A stretch of DNA of 64,000 nucleotides, taken from Gordonibacter urolithinfaciens (GTDB taxonomy: Bacteria; Actinomycetota; Coriobacteriia; Coriobacteriales; Eggerthellaceae). Made by a program: the position numbers and the translations under genes. This document shows, one piece after another, positions 12,737 to 17,491 of this stretch. Location: assembly GCF_900199375.1 (NCBI RefSeq), contig NZ_LT900217.1, positions 2,852,001 through 2,916,000 of the forward strand. The letters run 5' to 3'. The first letter of the stretch is position 1. Every line of letters begins with the position of its first letter. Below the pieces are notes generated by a model. The model was not told the origin of the DNA, ran no database searches, and worked only from the letters and a program-made list of their open reading frames with translations.

Positions 12737-13153
12737 AGGGGTATGTCTCCTTCCCTCAAACCCCGCGCGTCGCGGGGCCCTCCTTCGAGCTTTCAGCTCG
12801 CGCGCGGTACGTCGCATCCTGCGGCGACCGTCGCGTATCCGTATACTTTATTACAATAAAGCGTAAGGAAGCGCAACAAAACCGCCCGAAACGCGATATT
12901 AATCTGCCGAGCGCACCAATTGGCCCCCGAAAGGCAGCGGAAGGGGCGGCGGGCGGAGGGCCCCGCTGCCGGGCCGGCCGCTTACGCGAGGGCGCGCCTG
13001 CGGAGCCTGCTCTGCCAGCCCGCTCGCGGTAGGGCCGCAAGAGGGCCTGCGCGCCGAGCGGCTTGCCGCGATCGGGATTGCCCCCTTCCCAAGGCCGCCC
13101 GGTTGGTGCTATGCTTCGTCCGACCCGGAAAGCCCGACCGAAGAAAGGCCGCA
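12737..13153. other. Divergent control region of the peptide operon and the trp leader
   Basis: 417 bp between divergent units. The left part holds an AT-rich island at 12835-12865 in otherwise very GC-rich DNA, with the perfect palindrome CTTTATTACAATAAAG (12846-12861), a plausible operator and promoter zone for the minus-strand operon. The right part has an extended -10 (TGCTATGCT, hexamer 13110-13115) about 40 bp before the trp leader peptide. No gene is supported in between. Confidence 0.6.
13110..13115 (+). promoter_or_regulatory. Putative extended -10 promoter of the trp leader
   Basis: TGCTATGCT gives an extended -10 hexamer TATGCT; there is no good -35. The predicted start near 13122 would place the leader-peptide ATG about 32 nt into the message. 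Confidence 0.4.
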
Positions 13154-13243
13154 ATGCCCTCAACCGCCCACACCGCAGCTTTCGCCGACAGCGTGCTTAA
13201 CACGTTGCCCGTCGGCGCGTGGTGGTGGAAGAGAAGGCATTGA
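13154..13243 (+). CDS. trpL: Tryptophan leader peptide
   Basis: 29-codon ORF starting ATG at 13154 behind GAAAGG. It reads MPSTAHTAAF... and ends with three consecutive tryptophan codons followed by KRRH (GAWWWKRRH-stop). A short ORF with a run of Trp codons just before an attenuator is the signature of ribosome-mediated transcription attenuation: scarce charged tRNA-Trp stalls the ribosome at the TGG codons and favours the antiterminator. The original target is the TrpB-like gene downstream, now separated by an insertion sequence. Confidence 0.92.
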   Translation: MPSTAHTAAFADSVLNTLPVGAWWWKRRH

Positions 13244-13259
13244 TCCCGGGTCTCGCATA

Positions 13260-13318
13260 GGCTTCTGTTCCGCGCATGCATACACAGAAGAGCCCTCGGA
13301 GATCCGGGGGCTCTTTTT
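13260..13318 (+). terminator. trp attenuator: antiterminator and terminator hairpins
   Basis: Terminator: stem GAGCCC-T-CGGA / TCCG-G-GGGCTC at 13290-13313 followed by T5. A competing antiterminator pairs GGCTTCTGT (13260-13268) with ACAGAAGAGCC (13284-13294), which takes over the left half of the terminator stem. An AGAAG stretch at the end of the leader ORF can pair with CTTCT of the antiterminator, giving the usual 1:2 / 2:3 / 3:4 arrangement. Confidence 0.88.
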
Positions 13319-13331
13319 GTTTGCGCGGACG

Positions 13332-13339
13332 GAGGATGA
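13332..13339. repeat. Left target-site duplication of the IS
   Basis: GAGGATGA, identical to 14673-14680, directly abuts the left inverted repeat. An 8-bp duplication fits the IS256-related IS1249 group and shows that the element arrived by transposition and has not rearranged since. Confidence 0.93.
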
Positions 13340-13365
13340 GGGTTATAGGACAAAAAGTGTGTCCG
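13340..13365. repeat. Left terminal inverted repeat of the IS
   Basis: 26 bp, perfect inverted match to 14647-14672; begins GGGTTATAGG and ends GTGTGTCCG. Confidence 0.95.
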
Positions 13366-13375
13366 GCCCGATTGT

Positions 13376-14485
13376 TCACTGACGGTACTCGACCGCCGTG
13401 TGGAACTCTCCCCAGGCTACTCCCGCACCGTATTCGTCAGGCGTCCCGCCATCCCGCCTCTTGGGCTTGGAGGCCATCGCGAACAGCCCTTCGACGTCAT
13501 CGTCGGTGGGCATGGCCTTCAGCATCCTGGCGGCAGGGAGGGGCGACCCGGCGTGCGCGTAACACCACCAGAAGATCGCCTTGACGCGCCGCATCCTGGA
13601 CAGCCCGCGGTGGTTTCGGATCATCTCGCGCAGCTGCGCGTTCACGCCTCCCTCTATCATGTTGGAGGTGGAGTCCCACTCGCCGCCCCGCTCTTCGGCC
13701 ATCTCCACGAACGCGAACAGCGTCCCCGACCGCACGAGGCCGTTGAGCGCGCGGCGGGCCTTCCTCAGCTCCCGGTGCACGTAGCGCCTCTTGCCGTCTT
13801 CGAGCGCGAACTCGCGCAGGAACCCCTCCCACTTGGAGCACCACTCCGCGTACTCGGCCAGCCACGCTGCCGCCGATCCGGCGTCCTTGGCCTTCAGCAG
13901 CTTCTTGGCGAGGCCGTAGAGCTCCTTGCCCGCCTCCAGCTTGGGGCGCGAGGTGGTGCACCTTTTTACCTGGCAGAATGCGTGGAACGTGCACCTCTGG
14001 ACGCAGGTGCCCGGCCACATGGCGCGCGCCGCCTTGGCAAACCCGGCGCCCCCGTCGGAGACGGCCAGGCGCGGCGGGGCCATCTTGGCCATGAGCGCCG
14101 CCCAGGCGCCGGAGTTCTCGCTCTCGGCCAGGTGCCAGGCGAGCACGTGCTCTTTGGTGCAGGCTATGAGCACGACGAGCCCCGAGATCCAGATGCCGTC
14201 CAAGAACACGACGTCGCACACCTCCCCGGTGTAGGAGGGCAGGGGCCACATCTGCCAGAATCTGGCGGCTTTCCTGCGAAACGTCCTGGACGAGCATCCG
14301 AAGTCCTCTTGGCCGCGCTTGGAGAAGAGCCATCGGAGGAAGGCGTCGAGCTCCTTCGCCGAATTGTCGATACGGTGCGTCGTGGATGCCCCGCATGCCT
14401 TGCACCTCCACCTTTGCGCGCCCGCTTTCGTCTTGCCGTTGCGCTTCATCGCACCGCCGCACGCGCCGCACTTCGGGTTATCCAT
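13376..14485 (-). CDS. tnp: IS1249-group transposase
   Basis: 369 residues from the ATG at 14485. It opens with a zinc-ribbon (CGACGG...CKACG, residues ~5-32) followed by ...AQRWRCKACGASTTHRIDNSAK, which is characteristic of the IS1249 group. The RNase H-like DDE region includes VVFLDGIW (first Asp) and LAVSDGGAGF (second Asp), then CTFHAFCQVKR and the IEGG-containing helix with the final Glu. AGGAG stands 7 nt before the chosen ATG; a longer in-frame start at 14563 would run through the internal terminal-repeat copy and has no ribosome site. The gene is intact, so the element may still be active. Confidence 0.93.
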   Translation of the reverse strand: MDNPKCGACGGAMKRNGKTKAGAQRWRCKACGASTTHRIDNSAKELDAFLRWLFSKRGQEDFGCSSRTFRRKAARFWQMWPLPSYTGEVCDVVFLDGIWISGLVVLIACTKEHVLAWHLAESENSGAWAALMAKMAPPRLAVSDGGAGFAKAARAMWPGTCVQRCTFHAFCQVKRCTTSRPKLEAGKELYGLAKKLLKAKDAGSAAAWLAEYAEWCSKWEGFLREFALEDGKRRYVHRELRKARRALNGLVRSGTLFAFVEMAEERGGEWDSTSNMIEGGVNAQLREMIRNHRGLSRMRRVKAIFWWCYAHAGSPLPAARMLKAMPTDDDVEGLFAMASKPKRRDGGTPDEYGAGVAWGEFHTAVEYRQ

Positions 14486-14556
14486 TCGTCCGCTCCTGCC
14501 CAAGATGAACTTTTCTCTCCGAAAAGCTATCTTGAACAGGCGTGTCAAGCGCAAAC

Positions 14557-14574
14557 CGGACACACTTTTTGTCC
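14557..14574. repeat. Internal copy of the IS terminal repeat
   Basis: CGGACACACTTTTTGTCC repeats 18 bp of the right terminal inverted repeat in the same orientation, about 90 bp inside the end and directly upstream of the transposase gene. It could be a second transposase binding site or autoregulatory operator. Confidence 0.75.
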
Positions 14575-14642
14575 GGGTGAAAAGTTGGGGCGAAACAACT
14601 TTTCAGTGTGATTTCTTCAGATTGAACTGGGAAAAAGATGGT

Positions 14643-14670
14643 TTGTCGGACACACTTTTTGTCCTATAAC
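14643..14670 (+). promoter_or_regulatory. Outward promoter in the right end of the IS
   Basis: TTGTCG at 14643-14648 and TATAAC at 14665-14670 are 16 bp apart and point out of the IS toward the TrpB-like gene, whose ATG lies 50 bp further on. The -10 is part of the terminal repeat; the -35 TTG lies just inside it and is absent at the left end. Activity is inferred from spacing and consensus. Confidence 0.55.
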
Positions 14671-14672
14671 CC
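14647..14672. repeat. Right terminal inverted repeat of the IS
   Basis: 26 bp, perfect inverted match to 13340-13365. Confidence 0.95.
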
Positions 14673-14680
14673 GAGGATGA
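14673..14680. repeat. Right target-site duplication of the IS
   Basis: GAGGATGA, identical to the left copy at 13332-13339. Confidence 0.93.
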
Positions 14681-14720
14681 ACCGCGGCGGGGACGCCGCA
14701 GCAACGTGAAAGGAACCATC

Positions 14721-16106
14721 ATGACCGAGAACGCGCCGCACCGCCTGTACCTGCGAGAAGACCAGATCCCCGCGCAGTGGTACAACCTGCGGGCCGACAT
14801 GCCGGAGAAGCCCGAGCCCATCCGGCTGCCGAACGGCGCCGTGGCGCGCCCCGAGGACCTCGCGTCCGTGTTCTGCGACGAGCTGGTGGCGCAGGAGCTC
14901 GACGACGACACGGCCTACTTCGACATCCCCGAGCCCGTGCGGGAGATGTACCGCATCTACCGGCCCTCGCCGCTATGCCGCGCGTACAACCTGGAGCGCG
15001 CACTGGGCACGCCCGCGAAGATCTACTACAAGTTCGAGGGCAACAACACGTCCGGCTCCCACAAGCTGAACTCCGCCATCGCGCAGGCCTACTACGCCAA
15101 GGCCCAGGAGCTCACGGGCATCACCACCGAGACGGGCGCGGGCCAGTGGGGCACGGCGCTCGCCGAGGCCGCCGACCACTTCGGACTCAACCTGGACGTG
15201 TTCATGGTGAAGTGCTCCTACGAGCAGAAGCCGTTCCGCCGCAACATCATGGAGACGTTCAAGGCCAACGTCACGCCCTCGCCGTCGGACACCACGGCCA
15301 TCGGCCGCAAGATGCTCTCCGAGCATCCCGATTCCACGGGATCGCTCGGCACGGCCATCTCCGAGGCGGTGGAGCGCGCGCTGAACATCCCCGAGAACAA
15401 GGGGCGCTACACGCTGGGCAGCGTGCTCAACCAGGTGGTGCTGCACCAGTCGGTCATCGGGTTGGAGAGCTACGCCGCTTTTCAAGAGCTGGGCGAGTAC
15501 CCGGACGTGGTGATAGGGTGCGCGGGCGGCGGGTCGAACCTGGGCGGCCTCATCGCGCCGTTCATGCGCGACACGCTGCGCGGCGAGCGTCCCGACACGC
15601 GCTTCGTGGCCGTGGAGCCTGCGAGCTGCCCCTCGCTCACGCGCGGGCGCTACGCCTACGACTTCGCCGACACGGGCCAGACGTGCCCGCTTGCCAAGAT
15701 GTACACGCTTGGCAACGGCTTCCAGCCCAGCGCCGATCACGCCGGCGGCCTGCGCTACCACGGCATGAGCCCCATCGTGTCGAAGTTGAAGCACGATGGC
15801 TACCTGGAGGCCGTGGCCGTGAGGCAGACCGACGTGTTCGCCGCCGCCGTGGAGTTCGCGCGCTTGGAGACTATCCTGCCCGCGCCCGAGAGCGCGCACG
15901 CCATCTTCCAGGCCATGGAGGAGGCGCGCCGCTGCGCCGAGACGGGGGAGGCCAAGACCATCCTGTTCGGCCTCACCGGCACCGGCTACTTCGACATGAA
16001 GGCCTACGACGCCTTCAACAAGGGCGAGATGGTCGACCACGAGCCCACCGACGAGGAGCTGGAAGCCGGCTTCGCCACCATCCCGCACATCGAGGGCCTG
16101 CAGTAG
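14721..16106 (+). CDS. Stand-alone TrpB-like PLP enzyme (TrpB2 type tryptophan synthase beta)
   Basis: 461 residues, longer than classical TrpB (about 395) as in TrpB2. The PLP lysine is Lys115 in NTSGSHKLNSA, and the phosphate-binding glycine loop is CAGGGSNLGG. It should make tryptophan from indole (or serine plus indole-like substrates) in the cytosol. GAAAGGA is 7-12 nt before the ATG at 14721; an upstream in-frame ATG at 14706 has no such site. No trpA or other trp genes are near, so it may salvage indole rather than run de novo synthesis. The Trp leader peptide and attenuator upstream confirm that tryptophan was its control signal before the IS inserted. Confidence 0.9.
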   Translation: MTENAPHRLYLREDQIPAQWYNLRADMPEKPEPIRLPNGAVARPEDLASVFCDELVAQELDDDTAYFDIPEPVREMYRIYRPSPLCRAYNLERALGTPAKIYYKFEGNNTSGSHKLNSAIAQAYYAKAQELTGITTETGAGQWGTALAEAADHFGLNLDVFMVKCSYEQKPFRRNIMETFKANVTPSPSDTTAIGRKMLSEHPDSTGSLGTAISEAVERALNIPENKGRYTLGSVLNQVVLHQSVIGLESYAAFQELGEYPDVVIGCAGGGSNLGGLIAPFMRDTLRGERPDTRFVAVEPASCPSLTRGRYAYDFADTGQTCPLAKMYTLGNGFQPSADHAGGLRYHGMSPIVSKLKHDGYLEAVAVRQTDVFAAAVEFARLETILPAPESAHAIFQAMEEARRCAETGEAKTILFGLTGTGYFDMKAYDAFNKGEMVDHEPTDEELEAGFATIPHIEGLQ

Positions 16107-16801: not shown

Positions 16802-17491
16802 ATGAGCCTTTTCCGTGCCGAGCATATCGCCCTGTCCTACCGTCGCGGCGGCGAAGCCGTGCCGCTTCTGCGCGACGCGTCGCTCTCGCTCGAGGCGGGC
16901 GTGATCTGCGACCTCGTGGGACCATCGGGTGCGGGGAAGTCGACGCTCCTGCGCGCGTGCGCGCTCATGCTGGGGCGCGACTCCGGCGAGCTCTACCTGG
17001 ACGGACGGCCCTCCTCGGCGTTCAAGCCGACCGAGTGGCGCCGCCAGGTGTGCCTCGTGCCGCAGCAAGCCGCGCTCGTGGCGGGCACGGTGCGCGACAA
17101 CCTGGTGCTCCCGTGGAGGCTCAAGGTGAACGCCGGCACGCAGCCGCCCGCCGACGACGAGCTCGCGCGCCTGCTGGACGCGGCCGAGCTCTCCGACGTG
17201 GGCCTGGCCCGCGACGTGTCGCAGCTCTCCGGCGGCCAGGCCGCTCGCGTGGCGCTCCTGCGCGCGTTCGCCACGCGCCCGCGCGTGCTGCTGCTCGACG
17301 AGGTGGACGCGGCGCTCGACGACGACTCCGCGCTTGCGGTGGGCCGCCTCACGCGCAGCCTCGTGGACGCGCGCACCGCCTGCCTGCGCATCCGCCACCG
17401 CGCCTCCGACGGCTTCGCGTCCGGCACGTTCACGCTGGCGGACGGCGCGCTCTCCTTCGCGGCGGCGGGCGGGGAGGGGGTGCGCCCGTGA
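16802..17491 (+). CDS. FetA-like ABC transporter ATPase (YbbL type)
   Basis: 229 residues. Walker A GPSGAGKST, Q-loop VPQQAAL, signature LSGGQAARVALLRAF, Walker B VLLLDEVDAALD and a histidine in IRHR. The short size and the adjacent UPF0014-type permease identify a FetAB pair, reported to export iron or confer metal/peroxide tolerance in E. coli. The stop overlaps the GTG of the permease gene (GTGA). Expression is probably set by the palindrome just upstream. The true substrate in this organism is unknown. Confidence 0.85.
   Translation: MSLFRAEHIALSYRRGGEAVPLLRDASLSLEAGVICDLVGPSGAGKSTLLRACALMLGRDSGELYLDGRPSSAFKPTEWRRQVCLVPQQAALVAGTVRDNLVLPWRLKVNAGTQPPADDELARLLDAAELSDVGLARDVSQLSGGQAARVALLRAFATRPRVLLLDEVDAALDDDSALAVGRLTRSLVDARTACLRIRHRASDGFASGTFTLADGALSFAAAGGEGVRP

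Follow-up and report, generated by a model that had tools for sequence, protein, structure and literature searches.

The locus lies within a 64,000-nt stretch of DNA, called the window here. Read along the plus strand, it leads from a trp-type attenuator through an insertion sequence (IS) of the IS1249 group to a stand-alone gene for a TrpB-like enzyme (Table 1). The event behind this arrangement is ordinary in kind: a young IS has come to lie between an attenuator that looks functional and the one gene it appears to serve.

Table 1. Features of the locus, in window coordinates; counts out of 13 refer to the elements with both ends described in the text.
Feature	Position	Strand	Remarks
Native promoter-like site of the attenuated trpB-like gene, TTCCCA-18-TATGCT	13086..13115	+	Score 9.14, best plus-strand site of 12901-14720
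Leader peptide MPSTAHTAAFADSVLNTLPVGAWWWKRRH, three Trp codons at 13220-13228	13154..13243	+	WW leaders also in 12 other loci
Antiterminator 5′ strand, pairs with 13299-13308	13245..13254	+	Pairing in 89.3% of 112 cells; both sides changed in 4 pairs; 12 sequences
Intrinsic terminator of the attenuator	13286..13318	+	Pairing in 92.9% of 168 cells; both sides changed in 6 of 14 pairs
Left target-site duplication GAGGATGA	13332..13339	.	L008 has one GAGGATGT at its empty site
IS1249-group insertion sequence, 1333 bp	13340..14672	-	Repeats, genome copy, profile match
Left terminal inverted repeat, 26 bp	13340..13365	.	Repeat search
Transposase, 369 aa when read from ATG 14485 (the other genomic copy has GTG there; a GTG at 14563 would give a longer frame)	13376..14485	-	
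Transposase -35-like TTGACA	14543..14548	-	TTGAC at the same distance from the right end in 6/13 elements, at most 8 nt off in 9/13
Internal repeat copy (the third), matching the inner 18 bp of the ends and lying 90 bp in from the right end	14557..14574	.	
Palindrome TGAAAAGTTG-8-CAACTTTTCA, between internal and terminal copies	14578..14605	.	
Outward promoter-like TTGTCG-16-TATAAC, aimed at the trpB-like gene	14643..14670	+	Score 7.8, second-best plus-strand site of 12901-14720
Right terminal inverted repeat, 26 bp	14647..14672	.	Repeat search
Right target-site duplication GAGGATGA	14673..14680	.	
Stand-alone TrpB-like (TrpB2-type) gene, 461 aa, uninterrupted frame	14721..16106	+	dN/dS 0.115 against L008

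In E. coli, trp-type attenuators combine a Trp-rich leader peptide with mutually exclusive antiterminator and terminator structures. The leader upstream of the element (29 codons, with a TGG TGG TGG run) is alike in both respects, as its short ORF carries the Trp codons ahead of the terminator and its alternative, mutually exclusive helices covary; it differs in being placed before a single TrpB-like gene. A search of up to 500 nt upstream of 83 genes, i.e. the window's, two sister genes and 80 loci (less sequence was available in a few cases, and nothing for L032), returned small ORFs with WW in 21. Thirteen of these (the window, L008, L009, L014-L020 and L024-L026), all from Coriobacteriia, were examined, the other eight belonging to other groups, and in each of the 13, two TGG codons precede a terminator hairpin and T run. 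The alignment comprised 12 loci, L026 being omitted for a stretch identical to that of L018. Among 500 shuffles, none scored as high as the terminator on cells paired and one did so on pairs changed on both sides; for the antiterminator, the corresponding numbers were 0 and 31 of 500, with both structures derived from the window row and thereby favoured over slid controls. Covariation of both terminator and antiterminator indicates that the attenuator is real, and its responsiveness to tryptophan is putative. No Rfam family for it was found at the gathering cut-off in the window, L008, L009 or L014.

When this genome was searched with a leader model built from the 12 loci, only the locus in the window itself scored strongly (91.2 bits); the attenuator thus seems to have no target other than the TrpB-like gene. 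Two weak hits (29.3 and 28.7 bits), both without WW leaders, were rejected as further targets. As a separate observation, G004, a genus member without a TrpB-like gene of this type, has kept a WWW leader peptide (L151, G004:C6:26831-26924, minus strand) with a weaker attenuator match (42.1 bits), and about 54 nt further on lies a frame resembling the ABC-transporter-like gene at window position 16802; L151 probably stayed behind as a relic leader when its gene was lost.

The product of the gene downstream of the element scores 652.8 bits against NF009057 (cut-off 366) and 551.9 bits against TIGR01415 (cut-off 518.85; TrpB-like PLP enzyme), and 127.5 bits against canonical TrpB (TIGR00263), under the cut-off of 392.45, a pattern that assigns it to the TrpB2 type. 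Its nearest named relative among the matches is from Paraeggerthella hongkongensis (88% identity), which suggests that the bacterium belongs to the Eggerthellaceae, and within the genus it is present in three of five genomes (this one, G001 and G003). A canonical trpB is present in this genome as well; it shares 35% identity with the TrpB-like gene and is preceded by a T-box match of 65.4 bits, below the Rfam cut-off of 93; at that locus (L012, G000:C1 855351-859358), trpB is uninterrupted and its trpA is split over two frames. Searches for trpC found nothing in this genome, G001 and G003 (three of the five in the genus), with the same search positive in G002 and G004 and in 14 of 14 control genomes. 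For trpA, G002 and G004 each gave one uninterrupted match, this genome two pieces in different frames, and G001 and G003 no uninterrupted match; both absences are weaker for G003, as this assembly is only 82% complete. With trpC not found and trpA broken, de novo tryptophan synthesis is unlikely, and the TrpB-like enzyme probably salvages indole, so that the formation of tryptophan from indole and serine is a reasonable role to propose for it. Indole salvage is mentioned for TrpB2 of Thermococcus in a published account (PMC11085991). The window gene resembles the stand-alone tryptophan synthase beta enzymes of that account in its TIGR01415/NF009057 profile and in having no TrpA gene adjacent, its own activity being putative. 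Between the insertion site and the start codon lies a GC hairpin, GCGGCG-GGGA-CGCCGC (14684-14699), which all three genus members that have the TrpB-like gene share (window, L008 and L009).

In the IS1249 group of the IS256 family, the inverted repeats measure about 26 bp and the target duplication 8 bp. Both are found here: the 26-nt terminal repeats are 100% complementary and GAGGATGA abuts them perfectly on either side, a combination that far exceeds chance. The transposase frame is uninterrupted from the GTG (13376-14563) as well as from the inner ATG, and its product scores 442.8 bits against NCBIfam NF033544 (IS1249; curated cut-off 300), matching profile positions 1-380 of 382. These results bear out the first-pass annotation, which had described perfect ends and a perfect duplication, an intact IS1249-type transposase, and an insertion between attenuator and gene that is transcribed against the operon; leader and terminator indeed lie upstream of the minus-strand element and the gene downstream. 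IS1249 of a Corynebacterium jeikeium plasmid (L147, NC_003490.1; IS256 family) has the same annotated transposase family, akin ends (GGGTTA...GTGTGTC) and a transposase placed alike relative to them. It differs in measuring 1385 bp between the ends as we set them and in abutting another IS at its right end, and the window transposase is 32-35% identical to the Corynebacterium transposases found. Among the 14 elements listed, all from the window's family, the 8-bp duplication is perfect in eight, lacking in three and cut by a contig end in three. The family search gave 30 loci, 13 of which hold an element with both ends (up to 5 substitutions allowed); the other 17 were left out.

The genome, a single contig of 3.29 Mb, contains one other full copy of the element (C1:3019017-3020349), flanked by its own perfect duplication GGATCGGT. 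The two copies differ at 1 of 1333 bases, namely the first base of the inner start codon, which is ATG in the window and GTG in the second copy. From two near-identical copies with intact duplications, we infer that the element is transposition-competent. The second copy interrupts an otherwise open transporter gene, of which the part after the element matches MFS_1 with 110.5 bits (cut-off 33.4); the homologue of this gene in G002 is uninterrupted at the corresponding site. The disrupted MFS gene sits between tRNA-Asn and tRNA-Met genes (L002, G000:C1:3017517-3021849), and the end of L002 resembles trpS in our reading; in G001 (L009), the TrpB-like gene itself lies beside a tRNA-Asn gene and trpS.

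In the two sister species that keep the TrpB-like gene, G003 (L008) and G001 (L009), the leader passes directly into the gene. In G003, GAGGATGT occurs once at the place of the two GAGGATGA copies of this genome, and the G001 site has diverged, so that only the absence of the element can be stated there. The TrpB-like genes of the window and G003 are separated by a dS of 0.235 (dN/dS 0.115), compared with 1 difference in 1333 bases between the element copies, in a sample of one genome per species; if the copies share one recent source, both insertions would be very much younger than the species split. Elsewhere in the genus, no match to the element was found apart from an 88-base piece in G004 (E 7e-4). 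In the family search, 61 of 138 genomes had some match at E ≤ 0.001, and matches of at least 900 bases outside this genome were 66-74% identical, with one 345-base stretch reaching 78%; in a class sample of 396 genomes, matches at E ≤ 1e-100 came from 11, this one among them, with 68-74% identity in the other ten. Searches for a donor gave no match in plasmids (megablast) or phages (blastn) and, at the protein level in viral contigs, two pattern matches, neither of which was confirmed; the empty-site pattern was absent from viral contigs.

Because the element is absent from the sister species and only a single base separates it from the other copy, which is flanked by a perfect duplication of its own, the insertion is taken to be young and lineage-specific. 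That the site reflects a misassembly, or an old insertion now fixed across the species group, is very hard to credit: two near-identical copies in one genome are repeats of the kind that can mislead assemblies, yet they carry different perfect 8-bp duplications and are distinguished by one base, the genome is a single contig, and both gene-bearing sister species are without the element. The earlier description of the insertion as recent and undecayed thus stands. Its proposed comparison with empty sites, made here in sister species, gave an uninterrupted site in two of two, and the same IS at this site in all relatives, which that description had named as the sign of an old insertion, was not seen.

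The right end of the element points a promoter-like sequence at the TrpB-like gene, with candidate hexamers 16 nt apart. Its score (7.8) and that of the native site, which includes a bonus of 1 for the TG before the -10, were calculated with a sigma-70 matrix, spacer penalties and a TG bonus of our own setting, the matrix not being that of this organism; positions scoring at least as high as the right-end site make up 0.013% of the window on both strands. A stricter promoter scan listed neither of the two and found one other plus-strand site, inside the element (13597-13624; 6.2 by the sigma-70 matrix). The -10-like TATAAC, in which the final T of the consensus is missing, belongs to the terminal repeat, and nine of the 13 elements have exactly this hexamer. 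By contrast, the window element stands apart in its -35, TTG being found there in one of 12 relatives (L121), and with this hexamer not conserved, we rejected an outward promoter as a conserved feature of these elements. Activation of neighbouring genes by IS256 fusion promoters, and by promoters directed outwards from other IS elements, is well known (review PMC9330008). The locus resembles the cases in that review in that an IS end with a promoter-like motif pointing outwards lies beside a gene, and differs in that both hexamers are inside the element; activity of the site is putative.

With this sequence at the right end, constitutive expression deserves no less weight than silencing. The consequence of the insertion may therefore be de-regulated expression and not loss, a right-end promoter being something the first-pass annotation had not considered; its expectation that tryptophan control is broken is likely correct. 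A recent transposition of an IS1249-group element has moved the stand-alone TrpB-like gene 1.34 kb away from its leader-peptide attenuator. It seems probable to us that tryptophan control is thereby lost and that the gene is weakly expressed from the element's right end. Leader transcripts would then end at the attenuator or within the element, antisense to the transposase, and tryptophan would no longer set the level of the enzyme. The gene would instead be read from the right-end promoter-like site at a low, tryptophan-insensitive level, with a 5′ leader of about 45 nt. Such a loss would be tolerable because indole salvage is the enzyme's most likely task and a second trpB is present behind a T-box-like leader. 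This reading is favoured since native transcripts must cross 1.3 kb of antisense sequence with Rho present, a factor found in five of five genus genomes.

Silencing is a strong rival, even if we regard it as somewhat unlikely. It would amount to a polar knock-out, with native transcripts stopped at the attenuator or by Rho within the untranslated antisense part of the element, a right end that is no promoter and an enzyme that is essentially off. The presence of Rho, the 1.3 kb antisense to the transposase, the non-conserved -35 and the second trpB all suit it, as does a weak terminator-like hairpin on the plus strand (14578-14605), though shuffles give 1.8 such hairpins by chance. Against it, the promoter-like site is rightly placed at the right end, and the gene is uninterrupted and undecayed, though no decay would be expected so soon after an insertion. 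Residual control, whereby antiterminated polymerases would cross the element and tryptophan would still modulate the gene, more weakly, fits the intact native promoter-like site, leader and attenuator upstream; the 1.3 kb of untranslated antisense RNA in the presence of Rho and a possible converging transposase promoter make it doubtful. The locus offers a clean natural example of a gene parted from its attenuator in a lineage probably without de novo tryptophan synthesis, with the uninterrupted sister sites as controls. In Eggerthella lenta, IS256-family transposases are reported to be among the genes raised on phage infection (2026 preprint, PMC13174815).

The part of the locus least explained by known facts is the third copy of the terminal repeat, in which the inner 18 bp recur in the orientation of the right end. 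All 13 elements have their best match to their own right end 88-91 bp inside that end, with 14-18 of 18 bases identical. Internal copies match their own right end at a mean of 16.7 of 18 bases and the ends of other elements at 14.1, and none of 20,000 re-pairings was as good; relatedness of the elements was left uncorrected, so this tracking partly reflects shared descent. The best match in 200 base-shuffled bodies was 14, and since shuffled bodies reach this value, the copy in L119 (14 of 18) is identified by its position alone. A Collinsella element has the third copy as well (16 of 18). As a general feature of IS1249, the third copy was rejected for the one Corynebacterium copy examined, L147 (best match 11 of 18, chance level). 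No mention of it was found in the open-access literature searched.

Nine of the 13 elements have a TTGAC just inside the internal copy, at a distance of 116-125 nt from the right end; it was not found at that place in L109, L113, L119, L121 or the Collinsella and Corynebacterium elements. On the simplest reading, the third copy would be an operator at which the transposase binds to control its own promoter. In 4 of 15 elements scanned, namely that from Collinsella and L113, L119 and L121, the best hairpin found lies between the two right-hand repeat copies, outer and internal, faces inward and has a T run, as if to shield the transposase from outside transcription. Taken further, tryptophan control might have been swapped for transposase control, with the transposase shutting off the trpB-like gene from the right repeat, which the outward promoter-like site overlaps, and repressing itself from the third copy. 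We think this improbable; if true, IS1249-like elements of this class would carry a built-in operator, and genes driven by them would join the element's autoregulatory circuit. The third copy is in any case a testable regulatory feature of one IS1249-like branch. As a last observation, a circular record of 1628 bp named plasmid 12 of Collinsella aerofaciens (L145, NZ_OY725723.1) consists of a complete IS1249-type element (approximately 1-1355) and about 270 bp more; the element is also found in another replicon of the same strain, and L145 may be an excised circle or an assembly artefact.
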